Source: Gammaproteobacteria bacterium
GTDB taxonomy: Bacteria > Pseudomonadota > Gammaproteobacteria > SZUA-152
Direction of reading: 5' to 3'
Length of the DNA stretch: 44,173 nucleotides
NCBI GenBank assembly: GCA_011051685.1
Contig: DRKQ01000099.1
Coordinates: 1-44,173 of the forward strand
Of the stretch, positions 6,991 through 44,173 are shown one piece after another. How positions within the stretch are numbered: position 1 is the stretch's first letter; every line of letters begins with the position of its first letter. The notes under the pieces were generated by a model, which did no database searches, was not told the DNA's origin, and saw only the letters and a program-made list of their open reading frames with translations. The position numbers and the translations under genes are program-made.

Positions 6991-7095
6991 ATGGCCATTA
7001 TCGTACCAATCACCGTATTCCTGTTCATCATCGTATCCAGCTTCATACTCGGCGGCATCGGTTGCGACGCTGCAGCAGACGCACGCAAAAAATAA
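6991..7095 (+). CDS. Single-helix membrane microprotein, 34 aa
   Basis: This short gene starts at an ATG preceded by an excellent GAGGAGG site and ends at the TAA at 7093-7095. The product is one hydrophobic helix ('IIVPITVFLFIIVSSFILGG', residues 3-22) followed by a short polar tail with one Cys and 'ADARKK'. A clear rho-independent terminator follows at 7127-7154. It lies just before the small oxidase-like gene at 7218 and resembles the other microproteins of the cluster (20383, 24784). It is probably a small subunit or assembly factor of the respiratory complex. Function unknown. Confidence 0.65.
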   Translation: MAIIVPITVFLFIIVSSFILGGIGCDAAADARKK

Positions 7096-7126
7096 CAACT
7101 ACCCGGGGTCTTGGCCCCGAGTGCAG

Positions 7127-7154
7127 AAAAGCCCGGTTCTTCCGGGCTTTTTTC
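7127..7154 (+). terminator. Rho-independent terminator after the 34-aa gene
   Basis: AAAAGCCCGG (7127-7136), loop TTCTT, and CCGGGCTTTT (7142-7151) continuing into a T-run to 7153. The stem and T-tract are well placed 31 bases after the microprotein stop codon. Confidence 0.85.
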
Positions 7155-7217
7155 TGCGCTGTCTGCAATCAACCCGCCGATATTCAAACTCTCCCAGACG
7201 CCGTTGCTGCCGCACCT

Positions 7218-7784
7218 ATGTCCACACAACCACCCACACCATCCACATCCAACGACAAGCCTGACCCACAGCGTGGTGATGATGCCTACCTCGTCAAATA
7301 CCTGGTGATGTCCTCCCTGTGCCTGTTCATTGGCACCGTGCACGGGGTATTGCAGGTAATCCGCCCGATCCGTGCCTGGCTGGACAGCATCGGCAGTCCC
7401 TACGGCGGCCCGGGTCATCTCATCGACCCTCTGGCTCACGCCCACATCAATGTGGTGGGCGGTGTTGTGGTGTTTCTCATGGGCGCGTCGTACTATCTGT
7501 TGCCAAGAATGGCGGGGGTCAGGCTGTACTCACAACGCCTGGTGCATCACAGCTTCTGGTGGACCAGCATCGGTATTGCGGGTTTTTACAGCACCCTGAT
7601 GACCTTCGGCATTCTCGAGGGCCGCGCCCTGCTGCAGGATGCCAATCTGGTGGACGGCATTCACCGCTTTTACGGGCCCACCATCGCCACGGTATCGACC
7701 ATCATGGGCATCGGTTTCTGGGTGTATTTTGCCAACATCTTCTTGACCTTCCGCAAGATGCGCCGGGAGAGGCCGGAGAGCTGA
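7218..7784 (+). CDS. Four-helix protein related to heme-copper oxidase subunit I
   Basis: This 188-residue protein has about four membrane helices after a polar N-terminus. Helix II carries 'DPLAHAHINVVGG' (H74, H76) and leads to 'ASYYLLPR', then 'LYSQRLVHHSFWW'. These positions align without gaps, offset by 11, to the four-helix protein at 22432-22968, and through it to helices I-IV of the subunit I at 18940-20346 (H64 is the low-spin heme ligand there). No CuB ligand helices follow, so it cannot be a complete oxidase. RefSeq-like annotators would probably call it cbb3-type oxidase subunit I. The start at 7218 is chosen because the frame upstream runs through the terminator. It could be a heme-binding accessory subunit. 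Function unknown. Confidence 0.7.
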   Translation: MSTQPPTPSTSNDKPDPQRGDDAYLVKYLVMSSLCLFIGTVHGVLQVIRPIRAWLDSIGSPYGGPGHLIDPLAHAHINVVGGVVVFLMGASYYLLPRMAGVRLYSQRLVHHSFWWTSIGIAGFYSTLMTFGILEGRALLQDANLVDGIHRFYGPTIATVSTIMGIGFWVYFANIFLTFRKMRRERPES

Positions 7785-9485: not shown

Positions 9486-10811
9486 TCATGAAACGCTGCT
9501 GGCAGTTGCTTGCTTGTTTTGTTCGACAAAATGCTGCACCCGATAAACATCGTGCCAGCCATCCGCTGCATTCACATGCACCAGGAATGAATGCAACCCC
9601 GGCGGCATGCTGGAATTGATATGCAGGTTAAGATCAATGCGTCCTGCTGTATCGAAATGTAGCGCCTTCGATGCAATGGAATAACTTTTCTCGGGCAAGC
9701 CCTCGATACGCAGACTGACATCGGCTGGTCGATAGAGTTTGTGCGATATGGCAATGCGATAGTCACGGATCGTCGAGCCATATTGCTGGTCGGCACGATA
9801 CACTGCCAGGTGATAGGGGTCATAGCTCATCAAACCCCAGATAAACATGCCCAGCCCCAGCAGGGAGAATGGCAGGGTCCAGCGCATGCGTTGGGAGATG
9901 GATGCCAGGTTGCGTTTTAATGTTGGCCCGGACGATGAACCGCGCGCGAAGGACAACAGGCCTGTTTCACCCTTTTTGGCCTGCAGGCGATTGCAGGCAT
10001 CGATGCATTCGCCGCAGTTGATGCAACTGTCGTACATATCGGTATTGCGTGGGTCCAGGCCGATGAAACAGGCGGTGCTGCAATAGTTGCATTTCTCGCA
10101 ATTCGCGGCACGCGCCTCATCATAGGCGATCTTCAGGGTTTGTTTGGTCTTGAAGCCATGTTGCCAGACGCGGTACACACACATGAAGCGGCACCAGAAA
10201 TGTCGAATGAAACTCACATCCACCAGGATCACCAGCACACAAATCACGTAGATGTAATGCAGCGAATCGGCAAGGCGTGGGTCCTCGCGCAGGGTCATGA
10301 AGGACCAGACTACATCGGGAGGGTAGAAATAAAACAATGGGATCAATGCCAGCACCATGGACATGGCAAGCAGGATCAAACTCAGCAACAACCAATTGAG
10401 AAAGCGGTTCTTGCTGGCCGCCACTTTCATTTTTTCTCCGGCCACGCTCATGTCGGCACGCTTGCCCAACAGGCGATACGTCCACTCGTTGGCCATTTCC
10501 GAAAGGGTGTTCTGCGGGCAGGCCCAACCACAAAAGGCGGTCCCCACGGTGGAATACAACATCACCATGCCACTGGCGAGCAGCATCCACAGGCCAAACA
10601 CCAGAAAGAAGTCCGCCCACCAGATCTGATGATCAAGCACCACGAAGGCGCCCGCCACCAGGTCAATGCGCAACAGTCCGCTCACTGGAATAATGATGGC
10701 CAGGGCGATCAGCGAAAACTGGGTCAGGCGCCGGCGCCAATGAAAGTTCAGACCGCCGGGAGTGGTGTCGATGCGAATGGGAATCTTGCTCAATGCGTCA
10801 TTACTGCTCAT
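9486..10811 (-). CDS. ccoG: CcoG/FixG-like membrane 4Fe-4S protein
   Basis: This 441-residue polytopic protein has CcoG architecture: helices near residues 30-60 and 68-90, the conserved 'GTAFCGWACPQNTLSE', two more helices and 'FWCRFMCVYRVW'. Two ferredoxin motifs follow, 'CEKCNYCSTAC' and 'CINCGECIDAC', then one helix and a C-terminal periplasmic Ig-like domain. CcoG is a cupric reductase that helps supply Cu(I) for the CuB site of cbb3 oxidases. Its presence implies that the subunit I of this cluster carries CuB. The usual partners CcoH, CcoI and CcoS are not in the window. Confidence 0.88.
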   Translation of the reverse strand: MSSNDALSKIPIRIDTTPGGLNFHWRRRLTQFSLIALAIIIPVSGLLRIDLVAGAFVVLDHQIWWADFFLVFGLWMLLASGMVMLYSTVGTAFCGWACPQNTLSEMANEWTYRLLGKRADMSVAGEKMKVAASKNRFLNWLLLSLILLAMSMVLALIPLFYFYPPDVVWSFMTLREDPRLADSLHYIYVICVLVILVDVSFIRHFWCRFMCVYRVWQHGFKTKQTLKIAYDEARAANCEKCNYCSTACFIGLDPRNTDMYDSCINCGECIDACNRLQAKKGETGLLSFARGSSSGPTLKRNLASISQRMRWTLPFSLLGLGMFIWGLMSYDPYHLAVYRADQQYGSTIRDYRIAISHKLYRPADVSLRIEGLPEKSYSIASKALHFDTAGRIDLNLHINSSMPPGLHSFLVHVNAADGWHDVYRVQHFVEQNKQATASSVS

Positions 10812-10886: not shown

Positions 10887-13508
10887 CTAGGGTTTTTGTA
10901 AGACTGCATCCAGGGGACTTAAGGTCTCCAGCCGTTGACGATAGGCGGCGGCCTGCTCACGTTCTCCTGCCGTTTGCGCCAGGCGCCAGAGCCGCCGCAG
11001 GGCCTCAGTGTGATCAGGACGAATGCGCAGCACCGATTCCAGTAATTGGCGCTCCGTGAGCCCACGGGCCTCGGCCGCGGCGCTGTCCTGCAATACAGCG
11101 TCGGCCAGGGCGAAGCCCACCCAGCGATCATTGGGATTGGCCTGATAGGCCAGGGGCAGCAGGCGCTGACCCTCGCCTTGTTGCCCGCGCAACAGGGCGA
11201 GCCAGCTGCGATGGGCCAGCTCCGTGGCGATGTAGGCGCGTTCGAAGGCGTCGAAATCCTCTTGCGCCACTGCCAATTCACTGGCGGCCTGTTGCACCCG
11301 GGGTCGGATGGACTGCAACCAGGCCAACACCTTGGACATATCCAGCTCGCCGTTGTAACGCGCCCCTGGCAGACGGTATTCAATCACCGGTGCCCACTCG
11401 TCCTGCAGGGGCACATCCAGCGCAGGGATTTGCCCCCAGTAACGCCCCAGCCAGGTCCAGGGCCCTTCGCCACCGGTGGCGCCCGTGGCCTGCGCAGTGC
11501 CCAGGCGTTGCACATTGGCCAGCAGTTTGGCGCTGCTGACCTCGCCATCTCGCATACCCACCATGGCCAGGCGGAAGGCATCCACGAAGATTACTGCCTG
11601 GGGAAAGGCATCCCTGAAGGTGGCGAGTACCACTTTCAGGTTGGCTACGTCAAACTGGTTCAGTGCCAGCCATTGCACGAACAGCCCGCCCGGGGCCAGG
11701 CGCTGCCGGGCGCGCAGGAATTGCTGGCGGGACAACAAGGCGCTGCGGCCCACCAGGTCCGGGTGAAACAGGTCACCGATAATCACATCGTAGGCGGCCT
11801 TGTCGCTCATCAGGAAATGCCGGGCATCATCCCGCACCACGTGCAGTTGACGCGTGATGTCGCCATTCACCGGACGAAAGGCGCTCTGTGCGGCCAGGAT
11901 TGCCCCCCGGGACAATTCAACAGCGGTGCGCTGCAGATCGGGAAAGGCCAGGGAGGCCGAGGCGGAAATGCCCGTGCCCAGGCCCAGAAACAGTACTCGC
12001 TGCGGGTGGGGGTGAAGCAATAGGGGCAGGCGCACCTGGTTCTTCTGTACCACCACGGCGGTGGGCTCCGAGGAAGCATCCATGCGTCGCATGTCTGCCA
12101 GGAGCTGGCGTTGGCCATCGGCGCCCGCAACAACATGGGTGATGGAAATGGCGTCCTCATGTAGAGATAGGGTCTTGGCCCCGGCATAGGCCTTGGGCAA
12201 GAGACGGGAGACCGGCGGCATCTCCAGCACCGTGGTGCTCACCAGCCCCATGATGATCACCAGGGCCCAGGCAGGTCGAGAGGCCCAACCCCTGGCCAGC
12301 CCCAAACCCAAAACGAGCAACAACAGCGCTCCAAGAACGATGGTGGCATTGGTGCCCACCACTGGAATGAACACGAAGCCGGCCAGCAAGGTGCCCAGGG
12401 CAGCACCCAGGGAATTGGCGCCATACAACCACACGCCGCTTTGAAAACGATTACCCACGCGTTCCGCCAACAAGGGCAACCAGGCGCCGAGCACCAGGGT
12501 CACGGGCAGGGTCAAAAAGGCGATAGCCGAGCCCTGTAACCACAGCGCGGCAAACAGGGATGTGAAGTGTTCCTGTTCAATCCAGGCCGATAACACCGGC
12601 AGCCACCACAGGCTGAACAGGGCAAAGCCGCTGGCCACCACTGGCAGCACGGAAAACCAGTGTGGTTTGACCAGCACTCTCGCCAGCAGACTGCCAAAGC
12701 CGATACCCAGCAAAAACACGGCGAGAATGATCGCCAGTACATATTCGGTTCGCAACATCACCATGCCGAACAGACGCGTCCAGCCGATCTCCAGCAACAG
12801 GGCGCCGGCGCCGATACCGGCGTAGGCCAAGAGCCATTTAAGCGGCGGACGCTGCGGGGCAGGGGTGGGTGTCGTTTCCCGTTCAGAGCGTTCAAAACGC
12901 CAGGACAATAAAAACAGCATTCCCGCCATGACCAATCCCACGGCCGCCACCATACGCAGGGATGCCAGCCAGCCCAGATTGGGCAACAGCCACAGAGGCA
13001 ACAAGGCACCACAGGCACCACCCAGCGCATTGATGCCGTAAATGCTGCCCAGGGAAACCCTGGCCTCCTGCACAGCGGCAAGAATCAGCGGAAAACCGGC
13101 GCCCATGGCCATGGCGGGAATCATCAGCACCAGAGTGACCACCACAATCTGCAGCGCAATCCACCCGGTGTAGCCCGTACTGCCAGCGAGCACCGTGAGC
13201 TGGGCATCAATGGATTGAAACAACAAGGGCAACAACAGTGCAGTGATGGCCACAAATAACTCAATAAACGCAAACAGGCGCAGGGGATGCGAGGTAGCAC
13301 GGCTCCAGCGGGCACCGAGAAAACTACCGGCTCCCAGACCCGCCATGTAGGCCGTCACCGTGGCCACGACACCAAAGATACTCACCCCAAACTGTAGGGA
13401 GAGCATGCGTGTCCAGAGAATTTCATAACTCAGGCTGGCGGCCCCGGAGACCAGATAGATCACTACCAGAAACAGCCCCAGCCGTCTTAATGCGGGAACA
13501 CGATGCAT
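10887..13508 (-). CDS. Membrane protein fused to spermidine-synthase-like domain
   Basis: This 873-residue protein has two parts. Residues 1-420 form 12 or so membrane helices of an MFS-like type, including 'SGAASLSYEILWTRMLSLQF', the usual start of fused spermidine-synthase/MFS proteins. Residues 480-740 form a Rossmann methyltransferase/aminopropyltransferase fold with 'VLFLGLGTGISASASLAFP' and 'DVIIGDLFHPD'. A helical, TPR-like C-terminus follows. Such fusions are common in bacteria but the reaction is usually unknown; polyamine synthesis is not proven. It lies inside the respiratory cluster, between the ccoG-like gene and small membrane genes, in the same direction. Confidence 0.82.
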   Translation of the reverse strand: MHRVPALRRLGLFLVVIYLVSGAASLSYEILWTRMLSLQFGVSIFGVVATVTAYMAGLGAGSFLGARWSRATSHPLRLFAFIELFVAITALLLPLLFQSIDAQLTVLAGSTGYTGWIALQIVVVTLVLMIPAMAMGAGFPLILAAVQEARVSLGSIYGINALGGACGALLPLWLLPNLGWLASLRMVAAVGLVMAGMLFLLSWRFERSERETTPTPAPQRPPLKWLLAYAGIGAGALLLEIGWTRLFGMVMLRTEYVLAIILAVFLLGIGFGSLLARVLVKPHWFSVLPVVASGFALFSLWWLPVLSAWIEQEHFTSLFAALWLQGSAIAFLTLPVTLVLGAWLPLLAERVGNRFQSGVWLYGANSLGAALGTLLAGFVFIPVVGTNATIVLGALLLLVLGLGLARGWASRPAWALVIIMGLVSTTVLEMPPVSRLLPKAYAGAKTLSLHEDAISITHVVAGADGQRQLLADMRRMDASSEPTAVVVQKNQVRLPLLLHPHPQRVLFLGLGTGISASASLAFPDLQRTAVELSRGAILAAQSAFRPVNGDITRQLHVVRDDARHFLMSDKAAYDVIIGDLFHPDLVGRSALLSRQQFLRARQRLAPGGLFVQWLALNQFDVANLKVVLATFRDAFPQAVIFVDAFRLAMVGMRDGEVSSAKLLANVQRLGTAQATGATGGEGPWTWLGRYWGQIPALDVPLQDEWAPVIEYRLPGARYNGELDMSKVLAWLQSIRPRVQQAASELAVAQEDFDAFERAYIATELAHRSWLALLRGQQGEGQRLLPLAYQANPNDRWVGFALADAVLQDSAAAEARGLTERQLLESVLRIRPDHTEALRRLWRLAQTAGEREQAAAYRQRLETLSPLDAVLQKP

Positions 13509-14163: not shown

Positions 14164-15246
14164 CTATTGCTGCGCAGCCTTTTCAGTGTGGCTCTTGTCA
14201 GACGACACAGCACAACGGAAGCCAAAAAAGTCCGAGGCATAATAGGGCATTGAAAAATTACGATGATAGGTGGAGGTGGAAAAGGGATCGCTCTTCCACG
14301 AACCTCCGCGGCGCACCTTATAGACGCCTTCCATAGGCACCAAGTCGGCCACTTTCAGCCCACGATCCTCAGGGGTTAGTGCCTGGACCTTCTTGGGCTG
14401 GAAGGTATCAGCAGGTGCCGTAGAACCTTCGTATGGCCGAAAATCACTGGCTGTCCATTCACTTACATTACCCGCCATGTCAAACACACCATAGGGACTA
14501 ACACCGTTCTTGTAGGTTGTCACAATATTACTGGCACCGGTGTTGTAATAGGTATTGAGTCGTGTGGCATCCATCTTGTTTCCCCAGGGCCAACGCCGGC
14601 CATCGATGCCGCGCGCAGCCTTCTCCCACTCCGCCTCCGTGGGTAGACGTTTGCCTTCCCAGCGACAATAGTCTTCAGCGTCATACCATGTCACCATGGT
14701 TACAGGGTTAAGGATTTTTCCATCAGGGATCTGGCCATTAGCCCAGTCCAATGGCGGACGGTGCTTGGTTTCCATGACAAACTTGGCGTATTCAGCTTGT
14801 GTGACCGGATACTTGTCGATCTGATATTCAGGCAGAAACACGCGATGCTGTGGACGATTGTAATCGTCCGCCCGTGGCGAATCTGTTCCCATTAAAAATT
14901 CACCTGCCGGTATTGTCACTACTGCTTCAAGCTCTTTCCACTGCGCGGGAGTTAGCAGAGAATCCAACTCATTCCAGGCATAAACTTTTTGCGCCTTTGT
15001 CTGAGATTCATGATCACGATGGCGAGCAATATCCTCACCCGCGGCACGCAAATGATCCTTCATATCTGCAAGGTCATAGGTTGCCCGATCCCTCATATCC
15101 GCCATGCGGTTTGAACCCAACTTGACCACATGCAAAACACCAAATACTACGGCTGCGGCAATGCAGGTGATCACTGTGGCCGCCAGATAACGTTCACGCT
15201 TCTGGCGTTCCTCCGCTGTCAATTTGGCATGATACTGGGTCTGCAT
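14164..15246 (-). CDS. Membrane-anchored SUMF1/FGE-fold protein lacking catalytic Cys
   Basis: This 360-residue protein has one N-terminal helix (about residues 20-42), a linker, and a formylglycine-generating-enzyme (SUMF1) domain from about residue 109. The domain has 'PAGEFLMGTDSPRADD', 'YPVTQAEYAKFV', 'VTWYDAEDYCRWEGKRLPTE', 'AEWEKAARG', 'GVFDMAGNVSEWTASDF' and 'RRGGSWKSDPFST'. The cysteine pair that makes true FGE catalytic would follow the RGGSW block; here Ser and His occur instead. It is thus likely a structural or binding version of the fold, as in NirV-type proteins next to nitrite reductases. It is probably exported to the periplasmic face. Confidence 0.85.
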   Translation of the reverse strand: MQTQYHAKLTAEERQKRERYLAATVITCIAAAVVFGVLHVVKLGSNRMADMRDRATYDLADMKDHLRAAGEDIARHRDHESQTKAQKVYAWNELDSLLTPAQWKELEAVVTIPAGEFLMGTDSPRADDYNRPQHRVFLPEYQIDKYPVTQAEYAKFVMETKHRPPLDWANGQIPDGKILNPVTMVTWYDAEDYCRWEGKRLPTEAEWEKAARGIDGRRWPWGNKMDATRLNTYYNTGASNIVTTYKNGVSPYGVFDMAGNVSEWTASDFRPYEGSTAPADTFQPKKVQALTPEDRGLKVADLVPMEGVYKVRRGGSWKSDPFSTSTYHRNFSMPYYASDFFGFRCAVSSDKSHTEKAAQQ

Positions 15247-15249
15247 GAT

Positions 15250-15753
15250 TCAGCTCTTCTGTGCACCGGGCCCAGCCTTATCATCGGCATTTAGTGAACT
15301 CGTTTGCTTGTCCACGGCAGCGTCCCCATCGGATACATGGGCGGCTTTCTTCCAGCCATAAATACGCCTGTTCATGATTTCGCCCAGCACCCCACCGATC
15401 ATCGCAGACTCCATTGCCAGAATGACAAAAAAACCCCACCAGCCCAGCGGCATCAACTCGGCCCCATCGGGAAGCGGGTTATTCGAGTACACCGTTTGGT
15501 AGTAGGCGATGTAGCGCACTATGAGCGGTGGAAAAACCGCGATCCATTTCCCACCCAGTCCATAAATGTAAGAGACGGCTATCCCCACCAGCAAAGGGAG
15601 AATAAATAACTGCAAAAACCAGAAAATATTGAATGTTTTTAAACCCCAAAACAATTCAATACGAACGCCGAGCAGCCAATCCCCAAGAAAATTGAGCAGG
15701 CAGCCCGCAAGTAATGCAATGAAAAGCGTGAACCAGTTAATCCGCACCCTCAT
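15250..15753 (-). CDS. Uncharacterised four-helix membrane protein
   Basis: This 167-residue protein has about four hydrophobic helices (near residues 6-28, 45-66, 72-88 and 104-124) and a polar C-terminal tail of 35 residues. Arginine-containing 'PPLIVRYIAYYQT' lies in the third helix. No family was recognised. Its ATG overlaps the stop of the cytochrome c gene upstream (ATGA-type), and the FGE-fold gene follows after 3 bases. The tight packing places it in the same operon and suggests a complex subunit. Confidence 0.68.
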   Translation of the reverse strand: MRVRINWFTLFIALLAGCLLNFLGDWLLGVRIELFWGLKTFNIFWFLQLFILPLLVGIAVSYIYGLGGKWIAVFPPLIVRYIAYYQTVYSNNPLPDGAELMPLGWWGFFVILAMESAMIGGVLGEIMNRRIYGWKKAAHVSDGDAAVDKQTSSLNADDKAGPGAQKS

Positions 15754-16238
15754 TGTCGATAATCCTTGCCGGTGAGTTTTTCATACGCTGTTTTGCGAGC
15801 CTCATCTAGATACCAATCTTCAACTTTCAAACTGGCAATATACTTGGCAAGCTTGCGGCGATCAGCTTCGGGGATCTTTGCAAAAGAAGGCATACGAAAG
15901 CGCGGCTTGAGGCGAGAAGGAAGTATTGCCTGGGGGTTCTCTGAGGAGAAATAGCTGTACAACCACTCTTCATCACGCATGGAGCCCATGCCATCCAGAG
16001 AAGGCGCAGGAACGGCTTGCATGATGTTTCGCACACCCCATAAGGCATGACAGTCTCGACATTTGTATTTCCGGTATAGAACCGATGCCTCACGTGCCAG
16101 TTCTGGGCTGGCTGTGCTGTAAAATGGAATACCCGGATCTTTTTCCTTGTCCTGGGAGACCATCCAGGCTTTCACAGCCATAACCACCACGACAAAGGCC
16201 GTGATACCTAAAAGAATAGCCTTTTCGCCCTTACGCAT
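15750..16238 (-). CDS. Membrane-anchored monoheme cytochrome c
   Basis: This 162-residue protein has an N-terminal anchor after 'MRKGEK' (helix about residues 8-27), a heme motif 'CRDCH' near residue 60, then 'SLDGMGSMRDEEWLYSYF' and 'PRFRMPSFAKIPEADRRKLA', where the Met of 'RMPSF' is the likely sixth ligand. NorC and CcoO-type small cytochromes share this layout. It is a paralog of the cytochrome at 22972-23622, with the same anchor motif and SLDG(M/V)GS block. Probable role: electron entry to the heme-copper subunit I. Confidence 0.85.
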   Translation of the reverse strand: MRKGEKAILLGITAFVVVVMAVKAWMVSQDKEKDPGIPFYSTASPELAREASVLYRKYKCRDCHALWGVRNIMQAVPAPSLDGMGSMRDEEWLYSYFSSENPQAILPSRLKPRFRMPSFAKIPEADRRKLAKYIASLKVEDWYLDEARKTAYEKLTGKDYRQ

Positions 16239-16516
16239 TATGAACCGCTCTGCTTACGCTCCGCCTCTTTTGCCAGATATTCATCACGCAGCTCTTCTTG
16301 ATGTTTGTTGACCTTCATTGCCTTTTCGAATTCCTCAGGCGTCATCTTGTCTTTGTCGTTTTCATCGAAAACGACATATTTGATATCCTCGTCAAACTGA
16401 TCATTGTGCGCTGCCCAACGTACCCAGTAAATTGCGGTTAACACAATTGCGGCGCCGGCAATCAGCCAGAGATAAATCGTCCAGCCATCTTCAAATGAGT
16501 TAAAAAAATCCGCCAT
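16238..16516 (-). CDS. Small single-helix membrane protein with charged tail
   Basis: About 92 residues: one helix near residues 14-34 ('YLWLIAGAAIVLTAIYWVRW') and an acidic and basic cytoplasmic tail ('DENDKDKMTPEEFEKAMKV'). The second ATG (16516) is preferred over the one at 16522, because AGGAG lies 8 bases before it but only about 2 before the first. It overlaps the cytochrome gene by one base. CcoQ-like in layout, but with no recognisable sequence match. Function unknown. Confidence 0.65.
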   Translation of the reverse strand: MADFFNSFEDGWTIYLWLIAGAAIVLTAIYWVRWAAHNDQFDEDIKYVVFDENDKDKMTPEEFEKAMKVNKHQEELRDEYLAKEAERKQSGS

Positions 16517-16527
16517 CTTCATTTCTC

Positions 16528-16869
16528 CTAAAACAAATACCCATGAAGCATTTGCGCCGCACCAAACACGACCGCGGTAACTATGCCAAATAGAATCCAG
16601 ACAAAAAGGATTTTTTCACCTTTTTTCAGATTCGCCGTCTTCCCCTTCGTCATGAAAAGAAAAACAAAAACGGTAAATACAACAATCGATGCAATTAAAA
16701 AATAGAAAATACCAACACTAAATTCTTGTGACTTCATCCCTTCGATACTGGTATCAATACCGAATGGCCCACCTCCATCTTTCAGGGAGAGTTTCGGCAG
16801 ATGCAGAATCGCCACAGAAACAAGCTCATACACAAGATCAAGAAAATGTCGCACTGCGTCAGAAACCAT
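16528..16869 (-). CDS. Small two-helix membrane protein with KGEKILF motif
   Basis: About 113 residues from the ATG at 16869. An amphipathic N-terminus is followed by a helix ('FYFLIASIVVFTVFVFLF') and then 'LKKGEKILFVWILFGIVTAV', a second helix introduced by KKGEKILF. The same membrane-entry motif starts the anchors of the cytochromes at 15750 and 22972. An upstream frame extends to 17025, but runs through a strong hairpin and is not favoured. A start at the internal ATG of 'MKSQEF' is also possible. No family recognised. Confidence 0.55.
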   Translation of the reverse strand: MVSDAVRHFLDLVYELVSVAILHLPKLSLKDGGGPFGIDTSIEGMKSQEFSVGIFYFLIASIVVFTVFVFLFMTKGKTANLKKGEKILFVWILFGIVTAVVFGAAQMLHGYLF

Positions 16870-17312: not shown

Positions 17313-17951
17313 CTAGTGACCGTGGTGTGTGGGTTCCCAATCATAGGGAGGCAGCCGTTTCACCGCTATCACCACGCTTACGCAGAATACGACGATGAAA
17401 AAGATATCGATGGTATATCCCTTATCCCACCATGGCTGTACGCGCTCACGACGGATCTTTCCGGTGTTCGGATCGGTAATCCAATTACCTTCAAAGTTCG
17501 CAAGCACCAGCTTGTTACCAAGAACCGTATATTCGCGGAGATCGGCGTTCTGACGCTTCAGTTCGATTATCGCATCCTTGATCAGCCGTAAGTCATCCAT
17601 CTCCACAGGATGGCGTTCCTGTAGCGGCGCCCACTTGGAGCCTTCTGACTTCACCTTGTTGACGATATATTCCATCGCCTCTTTGTCACTCTTCCCCTGC
17701 ACTGCCGGAGAATCCATCAGCGCGATGTATTCTTCGTAGATTGCTGCATTGGGACGCTGCCCCCAGAGCGGAAAGGTAACAAGAAACGCCGTGATAATCG
17801 TCAAAATCAAAAGGCCAATGACAGGCACGGGCAGACGGTTGTTATCCTCCGTGATGCCACCGAGACTCTCTCCTTCCCAAACCTTTTTAGCCGCTTCATT
17901 CTGATCATCACTACTCAGGGTGTAAAGCGGGTTATCAAATTTCCAAGCCAT
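17313..17951 (-). CDS. Two-helix membrane subunit resembling heme-less CcoP N-terminus
   Basis: This 212-residue protein has 'SLGGITEDNNRLPVPVIGLL' (about residues 29-48), reminiscent of the CcoP start 'DGI.E.NNPLP.WW', and helix 1 ending in 'FPLWGQRP'. A soluble domain of about 110 residues follows, then a second helix near residues 178-198. No CxxCH is present. The FP.WG.RP element is shared with the 158-residue protein at 8991. Located directly after the CcoO-like gene, it occupies the place of CcoP in the cco order, and I infer a third core subunit without heme. Confidence 0.7.
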   Translation of the reverse strand: MAWKFDNPLYTLSSDDQNEAAKKVWEGESLGGITEDNNRLPVPVIGLLILTIITAFLVTFPLWGQRPNAAIYEEYIALMDSPAVQGKSDKEAMEYIVNKVKSEGSKWAPLQERHPVEMDDLRLIKDAIIELKRQNADLREYTVLGNKLVLANFEGNWITDPNTGKIRRERVQPWWDKGYTIDIFFIVVFCVSVVIAVKRLPPYDWEPTHHGH

Positions 17952-17962
17952 GTCTACTCCCC

Positions 17963-18913
17963 TTATTTCAAGTTCAGAACAAAGTCGATCAATGCGCGGG
18001 CTTCACTATCAGCCGCAGGTACCGGCACCTCGGGCGGATACACGGACTCACCATTGGTATAAGCCGTGTATTCGGCACGCCAACCGTCATAGTCGATAGT
18101 ATTGCCGTTGGCATCCTTTTCACCCCACAGATAATCGTAGCGTGGCATGATGGAATGCGACTGCACCAGACGTGGATTGAAGAAGTGCATCATCATCCAT
18201 TCACGCGATGAGTTGCGTGAACCCACGTGCGTCAAGTCAGGCGCCTTCCGGTCTGAACCAAATGCCGTGGGTGACTCGCCATTGAAGTCACCGAGCATAG
18301 GCGGAGCACCAAAGTACTGCCAATCCTGCGTTTGCTCTGGCAGCAGGGTGTGGCACCACCAGCAGCCCTCACGCACGAACATGATTTTACCTTTACCAAC
18401 GAGCAGACGCTGAGAATCGGCAGCTTTCGCCAAGGTAGCCTCCGGGGTCCAGCCACGAGTTGCCGTGGCATTTTCGATGAACGGAACCAACTCGCCATTC
18501 TCGACCTCTTCACGCACGATAAAGACAGCACCCTGCGCCTCTGAGGCCTCGTTGATGCGCCCTTTGGACTCGCTTGCAGCAGCAGGCAGTTTACCTAGAA
18601 TCCGCGGATGGCGAATGCCATTGGGAAACGGCACGTCCTTCTCGTAAACAAAGGCACGTGTCGACTCAATGGCTGCCCCTGTTTTCGGATCCTGGGTAAT
18701 TTGTACCGTGATTGGTTTCGCCCAGCCTTGCAGGAAGGGATCTTCATAACTGAAGCCCCCAACCCGGCCGAAGGACAGCTGACGATCCATTGCAATGGAT
18801 GTCGCGGATACATCCTGAATATCCACTGCCGGCATGTACAAGGTAATGAACATTGATGTACCGAACGCCAAACCGAACATTCGGGCACCAATTTTATACT
18901 CTCTAAAAGCCAT
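17963..18913 (-). CDS. CcoO-like monoheme cytochrome c subunit II
   Basis: This 316-residue protein has an N-terminal anchor (about residues 12-30) and a C-terminal heme domain. The heme motif 'REGCWWCHTLLPEQ' near residue 182, then 'DLTHVGSRNSSREW', 'HFFNPRLVQSHSIMPRYDYL' match CcoO blocks ('REGC..CH', 'PDLARVGGRYSD..H..HL.NPR', 'SKMPAYPWL'). The Met in 'SIMPRY' is the likely axial ligand. About 110 residues between anchor and heme domain have no CcoO counterpart. The gene starts 26 bases after subunit I. It would receive electrons from soluble cytochromes and pass them to the low-spin heme of subunit I. Confidence 0.88.
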   Translation of the reverse strand: MAFREYKIGARMFGLAFGTSMFITLYMPAVDIQDVSATSIAMDRQLSFGRVGGFSYEDPFLQGWAKPITVQITQDPKTGAAIESTRAFVYEKDVPFPNGIRHPRILGKLPAAASESKGRINEASEAQGAVFIVREEVENGELVPFIENATATRGWTPEATLAKAADSQRLLVGKGKIMFVREGCWWCHTLLPEQTQDWQYFGAPPMLGDFNGESPTAFGSDRKAPDLTHVGSRNSSREWMMMHFFNPRLVQSHSIMPRYDYLWGEKDANGNTIDYDGWRAEYTAYTNGESVYPPEVPVPAADSEARALIDFVLNLK

Positions 18914-18939: not shown

Positions 18940-20346
18940 TTAACGTTCGTAAGCAAGTTCGTGAGGCAGACGTCCAGCAGGAATTGCGGTTCCCACCCGA
19001 GCAGTCTTGTACATATTGTACAGCCACACACAGTTACCGAGGAACACCATGGTGCCGCCCACCCAACGGGCAATCATGTAGGGATGCTCGGCAATCACGA
19101 CGTCGATGTAAGGCACTTCGTAAATTTTACCTGCGCCCTGGATCAGACCAGCGATGGTCATGGATACCCAGTACGTGGTAAAGCCTACCAGCAACATCCA
19201 GAAGTGGAAGTTAGCCAGGCCCAGTGAATACAGTTTACGGCGCAGCAGTGTCTGCAGGCCATAGTACACGGCAGCCGCTTCCAGGAAGGTGGAGAAACCC
19301 AGCAACGCCAAGTGGGCATGGGCCACGATCCAGCCGGTTCCATGGATGTACCAGTTAATGGCACGGGTCTGCTGGAAACCACCCTGCATGTTTAGCGGGA
19401 TCGCCATCAACACACCGGTGATGGTGAACTTGATTTCGATGTTTTCCACGAACATGCGCCACTTGCCGGTCATGGTGAGCAGCAGGTTGGACACAAAGGC
19501 GATGGCCGGCACCAGGATCAACACACCTTCAACAGATGCGAAGGACTTCAGCCATTCAGGCAGGGGCGCGGACATCAGGTGATGAGCGGCCGGGGTGGAG
19601 TAGAACACCACCACAGACCAGAAATGCAAGTGACCGATGCGGTGCGAGTACAGCGGATTACCCGTTACCTTGGGCACCACATAGTAGGAGATGGCCGCTG
19701 CAACCGGCGTGATCCACAAGCCCAATACGTTATGGGCGAACCACCAGGTCAGATAGGCTTCAGTCAAACCAGTCAACTGGAAGAACTCGGGTGAATTACC
19801 CACCGAGAAAACGATGATAACCATGAATGTGGCTGCACCGAAGAACCAGTTAGTGGTGTAGATACCCTGTGTACGGCGCGTCTTGATAGTCATAAAGACG
19901 TTGACACAAAGCGGAGTCAACACGCCCAGGATCACAACCACATCGATAAAGAAGGGCATGTCGGAATACTCACGACCAGAACTCACTCCCAACCACAGCA
20001 GGAACAGCCCAAGTGACAGGCCGATATTCCAGATAAAGCAGTTCCAGACACCCAGCTTCTCAGACCACAACTTGGTATTACCCAAAGCCGGCGTGATGTA
20101 CATCATCGCCATGGCAAAGGCCATGGAGATCCAGCCGAGGATTACCGCCAGTACGTGCACCTGGCGCATATGTCCAAATGACAGGATCTCACTACCGGTG
20201 ACAAAATCCGGAAATGCGAGCTTGGCGGCATTGAAGGAACCCAAACCGGTTCCGATTACAAACCAAATGATAGACGAATAACCGAAGTAAACCGCGGCTG
20301 ATCCAGCCGGGATATCTTCCGCTTTCGCAAATAGGTATTTAAACAT
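18940..20346 (-). CDS. Heme-copper oxidoreductase subunit I, cbb3-related
   Basis: This 468-residue protein has 12 predicted helices. Ligands are present: low-spin heme His H64 ('RQVHVLAVILGW') and H345, high-spin heme H343 ('VAHAHLALLG'), and CuB H205 ('WWFAHN'), H255 and H256 ('TPAAHHL'). Y249 lies 44 residues after H205 and 6 before H255, exactly as the cross-linked tyrosine of CcoN. Where CcoN has Glu in 'STFEGPM', this protein has Q321 ('LNMQGGF'). The neighbours (CcoO-like, CcoG-like) confirm the cbb3 side of the superfamily. NorB is unlikely because the tyrosine is kept, but one of the newer NO reductase families or an unusual O2 reductase remains possible. The order (subunit I, then CcoO-like) is that of ccoNO. 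Confidence 0.9.
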   Translation of the reverse strand: MFKYLFAKAEDIPAGSAAVYFGYSSIIWFVIGTGLGSFNAAKLAFPDFVTGSEILSFGHMRQVHVLAVILGWISMAFAMAMMYITPALGNTKLWSEKLGVWNCFIWNIGLSLGLFLLWLGVSSGREYSDMPFFIDVVVILGVLTPLCVNVFMTIKTRRTQGIYTTNWFFGAATFMVIIVFSVGNSPEFFQLTGLTEAYLTWWFAHNVLGLWITPVAAAISYYVVPKVTGNPLYSHRIGHLHFWSVVVFYSTPAAHHLMSAPLPEWLKSFASVEGVLILVPAIAFVSNLLLTMTGKWRMFVENIEIKFTITGVLMAIPLNMQGGFQQTRAINWYIHGTGWIVAHAHLALLGFSTFLEAAAVYYGLQTLLRRKLYSLGLANFHFWMLLVGFTTYWVSMTIAGLIQGAGKIYEVPYIDVVIAEHPYMIARWVGGTMVFLGNCVWLYNMYKTARVGTAIPAGRLPHELAYER

Positions 20347-20536: not shown

Positions 20537-20794
20537 TCAGGCTCTGGACTCGATTTCCAGGTGGCGTCCAACAGCAACCTTGAGGATTGCAAAGAAGGCA
20601 AGACCAAAGACGATCATTGACCAGTCGATGAATCCGGTGAACGTCGCCGGGTCGTAAGCCATGCTACCCCAACCACCCCAGTCGTCGAACTGGCCGCGGC
20701 CGAGAAAACACATGAGCGTAGCGCCAAACACACTACCGTTGCCCATTCCGGTCAACATTCCCCCAACGAGAGAAAGCATTAGCGGATTTTTCAT
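20537..20794 (-). CDS. Two-helix membrane protein, 85 aa
   Basis: The 85-residue protein has helices near residues 5-30 and 55-76, a Gly/Trp-rich loop ('GRGQFDDWGGWGSMAYD') and a charged end 'GRHLEIESRA'. A textbook AGGAGGTG site lies 5 to 6 bases upstream of the ATG, which indicates high expression. It is the first gene of the subunit I operon, about 60 bases before the 30-residue microprotein. No family recognised. Confidence 0.72.
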   Translation of the reverse strand: MKNPLMLSLVGGMLTGMGNGSVFGATLMCFLGRGQFDDWGGWGSMAYDPATFTGFIDWSMIVFGLAFFAILKVAVGRHLEIESRA

Positions 20795-21465: not shown

Positions 21466-21918
21466 TCAAGCAAACACTTTTAATGACGACGTTGCCTGGC
21501 CAAATCCCGCCTCATTTGCAAACTGTCCCTTATGGAACACATATTGGCGCTTGGCGCCCATCATATCCATCCCGGTAAGGCCGAAGGACTTGCCGGCGTG
21601 ATCCGCGAAAAAACGCACATTCTTGATCAATTCGACGCTTTCACCATTACGCATCCTCAAAACGACCCGTTGTTTGGAAACCTCCAGCGATACCGGCGAT
21701 TGAGGCAACAATAGCAACCTTCCCAATATGCGGTGAATGCCCTGGTAGAAAAAGAAACAAGCCAGAAAAAACAACAAGTACGCCAGCCCCTGATTGCCGT
21801 CATACCAGAACATGAAGGCGCCAGTGCCGAGACCCGCCACCGTGGGTACATACATCAGGGCATCCCAAGTGACGCCCTTGCGATCCTGCACCAATTCAAA
21901 TACCGCTGATTTTGCCAC
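21466..21918 (-). CDS. Uncharacterised two-helix membrane protein
   Basis: This 150-residue protein has two helices (about residues 22-38 and 45-66) in a hairpin, followed by a soluble beta-rich domain ('VSLEVSKQRVVLRMRNGESV', 'AKRQYVFHKGQFANEAGF') that resembles bacterial PH-like/YcxB-type modules in overall plan. It lies 6 bases after the redoxin gene and is the last gene of the operon that starts near 23622. Role unknown. Confidence 0.65.
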   Translation of the reverse strand: MAKSAVFELVQDRKGVTWDALMYVPTVAGLGTGAFMFWYDGNQGLAYLLFFLACFFFYQGIHRILGRLLLLPQSPVSLEVSKQRVVLRMRNGESVELIKNVRFFADHAGKSFGLTGMDMMGAKRQYVFHKGQFANEAGFGQATSSLKVFA

Positions 21919-21924
21919 GCCGCA

Positions 21925-22428
21925 TCAACCTGTTTTGCGCTCGTTGAGCAACCCGGCCACCGCTGCATCCACCTCACGATAGAGCATGCGCCCGGCCCGC
22001 TTGAGGCGAATCTTGTGCTTGCCGTCGATGATGTAGGTCCAGGGGTCGCCGATTACCTTGAAGGCGTTGAAGGCTTCGGGATTTTGATACTGATCCATGT
22101 GCAGGAACAGCACATCCTGATTCTCATACTTATCCATGACGCCCTTGAGCATCTGTAAATGCTTGTCACATTGCGTGCAATGCCCAGGCGTGGCGAAGGC
22201 CAGCACGATCACCTTGCCAGAGTCCAGGGCATCATCCAGGGAATACTGGTACATGCGCTTATCGGGATAGCGATAACTGGTAATCCTGCTTAAATCTCCG
22301 CCCACATCCTCGAGGGTCTTGGTGCGTAAACTTGGCACCTCCATCCCCACCTTGTAGCTGCCATCGTCAAAGATACAGCCCGACAGGGACACCACCAGCA
22401 ATGTCACTACTATCCGCCACATAATCAC
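21925..22428 (-). CDS. Thioredoxin-fold lipoprotein (SCO/TlpA-like)
   Basis: This 167-residue protein has a lipoprotein signal ending 'VSLSGC' (Cys near residue 18) and a redoxin domain with 'KVIVLAFATPGHCTQCDKHL', a CxxC motif (CTQC), followed by 'DVLFLHMDQYQNPEAFNAFK' and the cis-Pro-like 'GDPWTYIIDGKHKI'. SCO and TlpA proteins deliver copper or reduce cysteines and heme sites during oxidase assembly. The dense cytochrome cluster makes a role in copper or heme c insertion likely. It follows the four-helix oxidase-like gene by 3 bases. Confidence 0.82.
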   Translation of the reverse strand: MIMWRIVVTLLVVSLSGCIFDDGSYKVGMEVPSLRTKTLEDVGGDLSRITSYRYPDKRMYQYSLDDALDSGKVIVLAFATPGHCTQCDKHLQMLKGVMDKYENQDVLFLHMDQYQNPEAFNAFKVIGDPWTYIIDGKHKIRLKRAGRMLYREVDAAVAGLLNERKTG

Positions 22429-22431
22429 ACC

Positions 22432-22968
22432 TCAGTCCCGGTCCCGAGCCTGTCGCCACCCGGCGCAGGTGCGAAACAGGTTGTATGCCCAGATAAAATT
22501 CGCCAGTAACACCAGGGTGCCAAATATACCCATGGTGGCAAGAATAGGCTTCACCACGGCCTCAACCTGCTCCGGCGTACCGGTCTCACTGGTCAGCCCA
22601 CCCAGTATCCCTGCCGTGGTGAAAAACACCACCATGCCAATGAGACCAAAGTTATGTGTCCAGAAATGCCATTTCACCAACTTGAGACTGTAGATAGGCT
22701 TTTTCACCAAGCGTGGAATAATGTAGTAGACCGCCCCAAAAATAGCCATTTCCACCCACCCCAACAGATTCACATGGGTGTGAGCGCGGACAATCAGATT
22801 GCCATGCAGGCGATGATCCACGAAATGACGAAATTCGGAAATACCCCCCATCAGCGCCCCCCAGGAAAAACCGATGATACTGTAGATGATACACGCGTAA
22901 ATAAACCACAGGGTGTAACGAGTATATTCCGTATCATGCACCCACGGCTCTTGCTGACTGCTGTTCAC
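22432..22968 (-). CDS. Four-helix protein matching oxidase subunit I helices I-IV
   Basis: This 178-residue protein has helices near 20-42, 58-84, 104-124 and 141-164. Helix II has 'VRAHTHVNLLGWVEMA' (H63, H65). Compared with the cluster's subunit I, H63/G70/W71/M74/P85/S94/K96/L97/W100/N106/G108/L109 match H64/G71/W72/M75/P86/S95/K97/L98/W101/N107/G109/L110 with no gap, so it is a free-standing homolog of helices I-IV, including the low-spin heme ligand. It lacks CuB and high-spin heme helices. It follows the cytochrome c gene by 3 bases, as NorB follows NorC. It may bind heme as an oligomer or act as an assembly subunit. Confidence 0.78.
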   Translation of the reverse strand: MNSSQQEPWVHDTEYTRYTLWFIYACIIYSIIGFSWGALMGGISEFRHFVDHRLHGNLIVRAHTHVNLLGWVEMAIFGAVYYIIPRLVKKPIYSLKLVKWHFWTHNFGLIGMVVFFTTAGILGGLTSETGTPEQVEAVVKPILATMGIFGTLVLLANFIWAYNLFRTCAGWRQARDRD

Positions 22969-22971
22969 TGA

Positions 22972-23622
22972 TTACTCCTGATGAGCCTTGTTGTTGGCCT
23001 GCTCGCTGGTTTTTTTGGAGGCAGGTGACTGCGTCCTGCCCTGTGAAGCACCTTCCGGCGCATCCTTGGTGCGTATATCCTGGTAGCGCTCCTTCCACTC
23101 CTTCGGCGCCCAGGCACCTACCATGTTATCAATAAAATCCGAGCGTCCTTCCGGCGGCATGGCTGCCGAAGATGAACCCTGCTCGGATTTCAATTCAGAG
23201 ATAAACACCGCAATGGCGTGACGGTCCTTTTCCGGCAACTGCGCCACATAGGCCGCCTCCTTGGGTGGAGCACCGTGATCGAAGGTCTTCGCCCCGTATG
23301 TTTTCTCTGGGTTGGCCAAAAAGTCGACCAACCACTCCAGACTGCGAACTGAGCCTACGCCATCCAGTGACAAACCCATATTGGTGCCATTTCGCAAGGC
23401 GCGATGACATGCTGTACAGCCGGATTTGCGGAAAAGTGCGGAGCCCACCTGTCCCTCCTCGGAAAAATCATAATGAGTCTTGTTCGCAAACATGGGTTCG
23501 GGACGCGAGGTGCGATACACCTCCAGGGCCGCATAGGCAACCACCGCAAGACCAATAAACACGGCAACGATTCCGAAAAGAATCTTTTCGCCGCTTTTTA
23601 ATATCTGCTTCTGATTTGACAT
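22972..23622 (-). CDS. Membrane-anchored monoheme cytochrome c, no clear Met ligand
   Basis: About 216 residues from the ATG at 23622, which has GGAAG upstream; the longer frame to 23697 has no better start. The N-terminus 'QILKSGEKILFGIVAVF' leads into one helix, then a heme motif 'CTACH' near residue 71 and 'SLDGVGSVRSLEWLVDFL'. Where its paralog at 15750 has 'RMPSF' the aligned residues are 'EAAYV', so the usual Met ligand is absent; a His lies nearby in 'FDHGAPP'. The C-terminus is a long polar tail rich in Ser, Lys and Gln. First gene of the 23622-21466 operon. Confidence 0.82.
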   Translation of the reverse strand: MSNQKQILKSGEKILFGIVAVFIGLAVVAYAALEVYRTSRPEPMFANKTHYDFSEEGQVGSALFRKSGCTACHRALRNGTNMGLSLDGVGSVRSLEWLVDFLANPEKTYGAKTFDHGAPPKEAAYVAQLPEKDRHAIAVFISELKSEQGSSSAAMPPEGRSDFIDNMVGAWAPKEWKERYQDIRTKDAPEGASQGRTQSPASKKTSEQANNKAHQE

Positions 23623-23722
23623 ATGACGTCTTCCAGCCCTTCCGGGAGGCGTGCTGCGATACAGGGATTGACGGAATAACTCGGCAGGCAAAACCACAGA
23701 CCGAAACCATCTTGGCCAGAGG

Positions 23723-23831: not shown

Positions 23832-24566
23832 TCATTCATGAGGGTAGTCATCCGGCACCCGGGAATTACCCATAGTGGTTCGCGGAGCAGACGTGAGATA
23901 GGTAGCCACATTGTGGATATCGTCATCGGTCATGTTTTTGGCCACGGCACGCATCTGACCCATGGGATCATTGGCACGGCTGCCATCACGCCATTTTTTC
24001 AGCTGATTGATCAGGTACACGTATTTCTGTCCACCGATCATGGGATACACCGGTGCGGCGCCTCGTCCGTTGAAACTATGACAGGAATAACAGGAAGGAA
24101 TACCGCGATCCGTGGCGCCATACATCACAATGGACTTGCCCAGGTGACGCACACCCACAGGATTTCCCAGCTCCTTCACCTGTTTCATATCGGAAGACAC
24201 CAATTCCTTGCTCAGGCTGGCGGCATAAGCCGCAACATCCCGACGATCCTCCGGGCTCAGCCCCTTGGCGTTGGTATTCATGATAAACATGGTGGTATCC
24301 ATGCGCTTGTCAGCGGCAAAATCTTCCAGCTGCTTTACCAGAAACACGTAGCCCTGTCCCGCCAAGCGGGGCGTGCCCATGGCGTCGTCACCCATGCCAT
24401 CCTGACCATGACAACTGTTACAGGCAGGTACATCGCCCTTGCCGTTCATGAAGATGTTTTTGCCGTTTTCGATATTACCGTGAATGCCGTGGCTCCCGCC
24501 CGAGGCAAACGCCGCAGATGCGGCGAACAGTGTCGCGACTGCTGATACTTTTGTTATGAGATGCAT
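23832..24566 (-). CDS. Diheme cytochrome c4-like protein
   Basis: About 244 residues with a cleavable signal peptide ('LFAASAAFASGG'). Two class I heme domains follow: 'CNSCHGQDGMGDDAMGTPRL' and 'CYSCHSFNGRGAAPVYPMIG', each ending in a 'GQ.Y(V)L..QL' block ('GQGYVFLVKQLEDF', 'GQKYVYLINQLKKW') that is characteristic of cytochrome c4. The ATG at 24566 is favoured because a GGAGGGAG site lies 7 bases before it. c4 proteins ferry electrons from the bc1 complex to terminal oxidases, including cbb3, so it is a natural donor to the reductase encoded next to it. Own terminator downstream. Confidence 0.92.
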   Translation of the reverse strand: MHLITKVSAVATLFAASAAFASGGSHGIHGNIENGKNIFMNGKGDVPACNSCHGQDGMGDDAMGTPRLAGQGYVFLVKQLEDFAADKRMDTTMFIMNTNAKGLSPEDRRDVAAYAASLSKELVSSDMKQVKELGNPVGVRHLGKSIVMYGATDRGIPSCYSCHSFNGRGAAPVYPMIGGQKYVYLINQLKKWRDGSRANDPMGQMRAVAKNMTDDDIHNVATYLTSAPRTTMGNSRVPDDYPHE

Positions 24567-24783
24567 AAGAACACTCCCTCCCAACCTAATTTGTTAATTC
24601 GTAATAAGCAATATGATTCTTGTTTTGCCCGGCTTGCGCCTTTGTTCTATCCCCAACCTGCTCTGGCCTGCTAATCGCTGGGCTTGCCTACTACCCACTC
24701 AGCCGTTTCCTGCAAATCCCGTCATCACATACCCCTGTTCACAAACAAACTGCGGCCAGGGCCACGCAAACGATTGGAATAAA

Positions 24784-43125: not shown

Positions 43126-44173
43126 CTATCGTCCACGACCCATCATACCGCCACCATGTCGCCCGCCATGCCGGCGACCACCGCCTGCGGCGGCCGTCAC
43201 CGTAATGCTGCCACTGACACCCGTAGCACCATTGGCATCACGGGCGGTCACGGTCACACTGCCCGCGGCAAGACCGGTGAGCACACCATTGCCATCAATA
43301 CTGGCAACCGCAGAATTGCTCACCTGCCAGGTGTACGGCGCCCGCCCACCGGTGGCGCTAAAACTCAGGGTTGAACCCACCGCCACACTGCCACTGGTCG
43401 GCGTAACCACAATCGTCACTGGCGGCGGCGCCGTCACCGTGATCGGCCCGGAATTGACAAAGGCCCCCGCGCTATCGGTGACCGTAATAGTGGTTGCACC
43501 GGCCGCTTGCGCCGTCAACACACCGGTATTGGAATCAATGCTGGCCACCCCGGGGCTGTTGCTGGTCCAAGTATAAGGTGCGGCGCCTCCACTGGCCGTG
43601 AAGGTGAGTGACTCACCCACACGCAATTGCGCACTGTTCGGCGAGATGAGAATAACCGTCGTCGCGCTCACACTCACCGTGGCCGAGTTGCTGCGTACCC
43701 CGTTGGCATCAGTGGCATTCACACTGGTGGAGCCAAGACCCAGCCCGGTGAATACGCCATTGGCACTGATGCTGCCAATGGTGGGATTGGCCACCGACCA
43801 CACATACGGCGCACTACCACCAGTGGCGGTGAATTGCACATTGCCACCCAAGACCACACTGGTGTTGCCCGGCGTAACACTGACCACTGCCGGTGGCGGC
43901 GGTGGCGGCGGCGTTGCACCACCACCCAGCGCCTTGAAGGCATTCAGCCGGCCACCGGTGACGGTGCGCCCGGCCAGGTCAGCAACCGGATCGACATTAT
44001 CCAGCAAGGCCGCGCGCAACGCAGGGATGCCGATGCCCGGGTTGCTGGCGATCACCAGCGCCGCAACACCTGTCACATGCGGCGCCGCCATGGAGGTGCC
44101 GTTAAAGCTGGCATAAGCATTGCCAGGCACGGTGCTCAGGATGCGCACCCCCGGCGCCCCCAGGTCCACACTG
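43126..44173 (-). CDS. Subtilisin-family protease with Ig-like repeats, N-terminus outside window
   Basis: The frame is open to the right edge, so the start, propeptide and the Asp and His catalytic blocks lie outside. Visible are the Ser-block 'FNGTSMAAPHVTGVAALVIA' and 'GGRLNAFKALGG', then a proline linker (PPPPPP) and three repeats of about 75-80 residues with 'LTFTASGGAAPYTW'/'GVL' and 'TITVTD' features of BIG2/cadherin-like Ig domains. The C-terminus is a glycine, arginine and histidine tail ('GGGRRHGGRHGGG', then 'MMGRGR'). It is a secreted or surface peptidase. At least 348 residues are visible. Confidence 0.93.
   Translation of the reverse strand, partial: SVDLGAPGVRILSTVPGNAYASFNGTSMAAPHVTGVAALVIASNPGIGIPALRAALLDNVDPVADLAGRTVTGGRLNAFKALGGGATPPPPPPPAVVSVTPGNTSVVLGGNVQFTATGGSAPYVWSVANPTIGSISANGVFTGLGLGSTSVNATDANGVRSNSATVSVSATTVILISPNSAQLRVGESLTFTASGGAAPYTWTSNSPGVASIDSNTGVLTAQAAGATTITVTDSAGAFVNSGPITVTAPPPVTIVVTPTSGSVAVGSTLSFSATGGRAPYTWQVSNSAVASIDGNGVLTGLAAGSVTVTARDANGATGVSGSITVTAAAGGGRRHGGRHGGGMMGRGR

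Follow-up and report, generated by a model that had tools for sequence, protein, structure and literature searches.

The window, by which we mean the whole 44,173-nucleotide stretch of gammaproteobacterial DNA analysed here, encodes what we consider, with a probability of about 0.72, to be the catalytic subunit of a 'distal' C-family (cbb3-like) O2 reductase that naturally carries the Glu-to-Gln change of the E383Q mutant, with a raised heme b3 potential and rerouted proton uptake. Judged from the aligned proteins, the Gln in question, Gln321, is neither a chance event nor a quirk of a single gene: it is genuine, runs through a whole clade and marks an active-site variant within an oxidase branch that is already known. 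The distal enzyme would keep heme b, heme b3, CuB and a cross-linkable Tyr, would reduce O2 with electrons from cytochrome c, and would act as a terminal oxidase in proteobacteria that oxidise iron or nitrite, where it is encoded in a cluster of many subunits.

The gene occupies 18940..20346 on the minus strand and was assigned by profile and structure-chain alignment. Its 468-residue product matches the COX1 profile with 254.6 bits, and its core aligns in full with CcoN of P. stutzeri (3mk7, E = 9.6e-60). Identity to canonical CcoN is 27–33%, and the score against the ccoN equivalog TIGR00780 (NCBIfam), at 218 bits, falls under the cut-off of 583. The coordinates and residues given in a preliminary description of this DNA, which left out the strand, hold up when checked against the codons: H64, H205, H255, H256, H343, H345 and Y249 are all found at the numbers it gave, with Y249 44 residues after H205 and 6 before H255. 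The three CuB His, the His of hemes b and b3 and the helix VII Tyr-II that define a C-type heme-copper oxygen reductase are all present, including the C-family catalytic tyrosine Tyr249 (19600..19602, minus) and His343 (19318..19320, minus), by homology the proximal ligand of heme b3. The helix block does read LNMQGGF, and codon 321 (CAG, 19384..19386, minus) places a Gln opposite Glu323 of P. stutzeri CcoN without a gap, as well as opposite Glu in five of five CcoN chains with printed alignments. The 22 residues that separate it from the heme b3 His (321/343) are the same in the alignment for P. stutzeri (E323/H345) and R. capsulatus (E380/H402). An AlphaFold2 model, whose input was 37 clade members that are all 79–88% identical, has a mean pLDDT of 57 and drops below 50 at residues 184–283 and 316–347, which surround the active site.

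To place this residue among its relatives, we drew homologues from 57 near genomes, a named genome collection, 22 named genomes (searched for every COX1 domain) and 397 phylum genomes. The metal ligands and the Tyr are invariant across all 147 distinct CcoN-like proteins aligned, and column 321 holds either Gln (124 proteins) or Glu (23) and no third residue. Canonical CcoN has Glu in 23 of 23. Most Gln-type proteins (117) form a tight clade with 71–100% identity (median pairwise identity 81%), and the other 7 are distant CcoN-like proteins (roughly 26–33%), partly fused to CcoS. The clade members spell their Gln as CAG (73) or CAA (44), both one base from Glu, and its invariance despite this therefore points to selection. 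The second genomic copy and the 117 relatives exclude an error of sequencing or assembly, and scans of viral contigs for more diverse CcoN gave no match. Glu-type CcoN make up one side of a single branch of the tree (SH-aLRT 100%); the branches leading to the outgroup are very long, so that the tree favours neither Gln nor Glu as the older state. The distant proteins (L030, L036, L178–L182) represent a second Gln-type set, some with an N-terminal CcoS-like fusion, in which Val replaces the K-channel Ser and Gly or Ala replaces H243; five of the seven have a Glu four residues past the Gln.

Named carriers of Gln-type CcoN are Gallionella, Sideroxydans, Ferrovum, Candidatus Nitrotoga and vent gammaproteobacteria, together with Gallionellaceae, Chromatiaceae and Thiotrichaceae MAGs; two families from outside the window's class (f74 and f94), probably Zetaproteobacteria by our own naming, carry it as well. 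The genome of the window holds a second Gln-type ccoN with its own ccoO on another contig (L002, G000:C213, 1450–2856), which is 93% identical in protein and 83% in nucleotide sequence; 175 codons differ synonymously and 31 are changed, and Gln is kept in both copies. A canonical ccoNO (contig C153) and a bd oxidase are also found in this genome. In Nitrotoga, the Gln-type CcoN is the only full-length COX1 in eight of eight genomes, accompanied by two half-COX1 proteins; cytochrome bd is absent from seven of these, one of which has AOX, and six of the eight lack any further oxidase of the heme-copper, bd or AOX kind. Several near-complete f74/f94 genomes likewise have the Gln-type CcoN as their only full heme-copper oxidase. 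A separate protein of the window's genome (458 aa, L006, G000:C98:2849-6399, 1432–2808, plus) belongs to the COX1 family and has the heme His without the CuB His-His pair; encoded next to a ferredoxin/MvhD-like gene, it resembles neither an oxidase nor an ordinary NorB.

The gene sits in a cluster of roughly 18 genes whose order is nearly constant over the 60 loci compared: a diheme cytochrome c, a monoheme cytochrome c, a half-COX1 protein, a thioredoxin-like protein and membrane proteins lead up to CcoN and CcoO, which are followed by small membrane proteins, a cytochrome c, an FGE-domain protein, an 873-aa spermidine-synthase-like protein and CcoG. In the window, the upstream part, all on the minus strand, comprises the diheme cytochrome c, a candidate electron donor (23832..24584, 51/60 loci), a membrane-anchored monoheme cytochrome c (22972..23697, from profile and locus comparison), half-COX1 protein A (22432..22968, 178 aa, matched by profile), which corresponds roughly to the C-terminal third of CcoN including the HxH heme motif, a putative thioredoxin-like protein that is possibly copper-chaperone-like, as read by eye (21925..22428, 50/60 loci), a 150-aa membrane protein (21466..21918, 50/60 loci) and, immediately upstream of ccoN, an 85-aa membrane protein (20537..20794, 59/60 loci). 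Beside CcoN lies a CcoO/FixO-like monoheme cytochrome c subunit of 316 aa with a long N-terminal insertion (17963..18913, minus), supported by PF02433 (1.1e-17) and by matches to cbb3 subunit II chains. Further along the same strand are a conserved membrane protein of 212 aa (17313..17951, 60/60 loci), a small two-helix membrane protein of 69 aa from its likeliest start (16528..16737, 60/60), a 94-aa membrane protein (16238..16522, 59/60), a membrane-anchored monoheme cytochrome c identified by profile (15750..16238, 59/60), a 167-aa membrane protein (15250..15753, 55/60), a membrane-anchored protein with an FGE-sulfatase (SUMF1-like) domain, also from a profile match (14164..15246, 55/60), the 873-aa protein, putatively spermidine-synthase-like as read by eye (10887..13508, 53/60), and a CcoG-like oxidase accessory protein found by profile (9486..10811, 49/60). 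A second small COX1-like protein, half-COX1 B, was found by the COX1 search on the plus strand (7062..7784); like protein A, it spans no more than the C-terminal third of CcoN, HxH heme motif included. Both half-COX1 proteins accompany Gln-type CcoN in nearly all of the 22 named genomes and in most f74/f94 genomes, and are possibly heme-carrying subunits or assembly factors. No CcoP-type gene was found among the neighbours searched; the diheme cytochrome matches ccoP weakly (33 bits, where the cut-off is 180). At the far end of the window, the C-terminal part of a subtilase-like protein with repeated Ig-like domains (43126–44169, minus) runs to the end of the contig.

Passages in papers on iron oxidisers (PMC7029218, PMC8788666, PMC10734462) distinguish proximal from distal cbb3 oxidases, after Ducluzeau, Ouchane and Nitschke 2008. 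S. lithotrophicus has both and transcribes its distal ccoNO about threefold more (PMC8788666), and both forms occur in Zetaproteobacteria (PMC7029218). As a Sideroxydans genome in our set (G070) has one cluster of each type, Glu and Gln, this two-cluster pattern and the taxonomy make the Gln-type clade very probably the distal cbb3 of Ducluzeau 2008. The 'authentic' cbb3 oxidases of Muntyan 2015, in the passage of PMC5492636 that cites it, have a mandatory active-centre Glu, which we read as the Glu of the Q321 column, where 124 of 124 Gln-type proteins depart from it; this exception may have been partly noticed before. Within the open-access literature searched, we found no report of a Glu-to-Gln or a K-channel Ser-to-Ala change in distal cbb3.

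In canonical cbb3, a hydrogen bond from the carboxylate (E323; E383 in R. sphaeroides) lends the proximal His imidazolate character and keeps the potential of heme b3 very low. Rauhamaki et al. (J Biol Chem 2009) reportedly saw a blue shift and a more axial EPR signal after replacing Glu383 by Gln in the cbb3 of R. sphaeroides, and are said to have inferred a hydrogen bond between Glu383 and the proximal ligand His405, which likewise lies 22 residues further along. A link between this bond and the low heme b3 potential was reportedly drawn by Sharma et al. (BBA 2010). We take the Q321 column to be that of Glu383, which would lie proximal to heme b3 and be bonded to its His ligand. If so, the whole clade would be a natural E383Q with its primary effect on heme b3, and the site would be a heme-tuning rather than a proton-channel residue, so that the first effect expected by analogy concerns heme b3 potential and O2 affinity and not proton delivery. 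A neutral Gln321 would raise the midpoint potential of heme b3, make its ferric EPR signal more axial and change the affinity for O2 and NO, with a better fit to high-potential donors (Fe(II), nitrite) as a plausible benefit; as Gln, too, is a hydrogen-bond acceptor, the shift might be small. An altered active-site chemistry, as proposed in the preliminary description, is plausible in this light, with Q321 22 residues before the heme b3 His, the spacing that Glu and His are said to have in R. sphaeroides. The idea of a role specific to Fe(II) is weakened by S. lithotrophicus ES-1, in which distal ccoNO goes up on thiosulfate and not on Fe(II)-citrate (PMC8788666).

Residues of the canonical proton path differ at other positions. 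The C-type K channel is defined by a Ser together with Tyr-II and a further Tyr (Sousa 2011 scheme, PMC3084760). Where all 23 canonical proteins have this Ser (the position of A-type T351, S283 of P. stutzeri), the clade has Ala in 117 of 117 (Ala281, 19504..19506, minus) and the distant Gln-type proteins have Val in 7 of 7; the Tyr (the position of A-type S291) is retained as Y221 in 124 of 124. Gly238 (19633..19635, minus) replaces Ser240 of P. stutzeri, again in 117 of 117. The main clade keeps T213, Y221, H241 and Y249, the first three corresponding to T215, Y223 and H243 of P. stutzeri, as well as the periplasmic-cavity acids E126 and D129, and R61, and has new, (nearly) invariant residues at H235, H239, S244, E273 and E356. 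From the alignment, Glu273 (19528..19530, minus) in helix VIII is invariant (117/117) where canonical CcoN is hydrophobic, and Glu356 (19279..19281, minus), which lies in helix X and 13 residues past the heme b3 ligand, is clade-specific and equally invariant (117/117). The loss of the K-channel Ser and S240 and the gain of polar and acidic residues therefore suggest that proton uptake is probably rerouted in the clade: it may bypass the lost S283 and S240 while T213, Y221, H241 and Y249 stay in place and H235, H239, S244, E273 and E356 are added. Proton pumping is possibly reduced. The earlier proposal that proton delivery differs is thus likely to hold, but by way of the lost Ser residues and the new polar residues of helix VII, and not through the Gln to which it had been ascribed.

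Nitrotoga respires O2 with nitrite (PMC6050957), and since six of its genomes have no other known terminal oxidase and the NOR motifs are absent, we infer that the Gln-type enzyme is an O2 reductase. It could instead reduce mainly NO, or another substrate that is not O2, with the loss of the Glu and the K-channel Ser marking a non-pumping enzyme that takes its protons from the periplasm; S283 and S240 are indeed gone, E126, D129 and R61 are retained as in cbb3 and cNOR (PMC3431322), and NO reduction is a side reaction of cbb3 enzymes (PMC8780969). Yet the catalytic Tyr is present in 124 of 124, and the cNOR/qNOR motifs H-X-(Arom)-X-E and H-H-X-(Arom)-(Arom)-X17-E (Sousa et al., PMC3084760) are here HNVLG, the His of which is H205, and HHLMS, with the Glu missing. 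Nor does the Glu that the preliminary description had placed in the matching region of NorB align there, as the Q321 column holds Trp in cNorB and Phe in qNOR; the second active-site Glu of NorB is in helix VIII at the column of I277, where the clade has no Glu, and E273, four residues (one turn) away, was rejected as its exact equivalent because of this offset. Separate cNOR, qNOR and eNOR-like genes also coexist with the Gln enzyme elsewhere, and a main role in NO reduction would leave the six Nitrotoga genomes without a known terminal oxidase. We therefore reject a NOR identity on motifs and genome distribution, and regard NO as the main substrate as highly improbable; the earlier hint at NO-reducing families falls with the missing motifs, the retained Tyr and the dependence of Nitrotoga on this enzyme.

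Even for an O2 reductase, the Gln might carry no functional weight. A carboxylate unique to the clade could stand in for Glu323 and leave the active site as in canonical enzymes, for which Glu273 and Glu356 are candidates, as both are invariant in 117 of 117 and missing from canonical CcoN; E273 also lies one helical turn above the NorB helix VIII Glu column, and five of the seven distant Gln-type proteins have a Glu four positions past the Gln. However, at 13 residues from the heme b3 His, E356 is too distant along the helix for a bond, and the other Gln lineages lack E273, which makes such a substitute quite improbable. Alternatively, the two Gln groups and the Glu type could merely be old cbb3 branches, with Gln ancestral and of no special function: several deep lineages carry Gln, a single branch sets off the Glu type, and the NorB column holds neither. 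We find this unlikely, as Gln is invariant in 124 proteins although a single base change gives Glu, and is thus maintained by selection, and as the tree, with its long branches, does not place the root.

A distal O2 reductase with a tuned heme b3 and rerouted proton uptake thus remains our preferred reading. We only tentatively extend it to a widespread subtype that gave up the Glu–His–heme b3 relay and the K-channel Ser, raised its potential and rerouted (perhaps reduced) its pumping through a helix VII His/Ser path and the acids of helices VIII and X in adapting to electron donors of high potential, which may be the case but is a good deal more speculative. Estimates of energy yield and O2 affinity in iron oxidisers and Ca. 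Nitrotoga assume a canonical cbb3 (the Nitrotoga genome paper, for example, takes its 'cbb3' to be a canonical high-affinity proton pump; PMC6050957), and the residues that underlie these properties in the textbook enzyme differ systematically in the Gln type. The chemistry and proton handling of the textbook enzyme are not simply transferable to the Gln-type clade, which, as a natural counterpart of a classical point mutant, makes the roles of the proximal Glu and the K-channel Ser comparable across natural enzymes.

Among known systems, canonical ('proximal') CcoN (P. stutzeri 3mk7/5djq; R. capsulatus 6xkw) shares with the Gln type its fold family, six His, helix VII Tyr, T215, Y223, H243, the Ca2+/periplasmic acids and a CcoO/FixO-like partner; at 27–33% identity, the Gln type differs from the P. 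stutzeri protein in Gln for Glu323, Ala for Ser283 and Gly for Ser240, and its cluster, unlike the canonical one, has several monoheme cytochromes, two half-COX1 proteins and an FGE-domain protein, with no CcoP match among the neighbours searched. The distal cbb3 of Sideroxydans, Gallionellaceae and Zetaproteobacteria has the same organisms in common with it, a second cluster beside the canonical one and a differing subunit composition, with no known difference between the two. NorB of cNOR and qNOR has a homologous 12-helix core but, unlike Gln-type CcoN, lacks the helix VII Tyr and has FeB and two active-site Glu, neither at the Q321 column. The CcoS-fused CcoN-like proteins (L030, L036, L178–L181; other gammaproteobacteria) likewise have Gln, with Val for the K-channel Ser, and differ in their identity of roughly 26–33%, a retained S240, a lost H243, the N-terminal CcoS-like fusion of some and the Glu that most of them, unlike the main clade, have four residues past the Gln. 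The E383Q mutant of R. sphaeroides cbb3 reportedly carries the identical substitution, equally far from the heme b3 ligand, but was engineered into a canonical enzyme whose K channel is intact, whereas the K channel of the Gln clade is altered.
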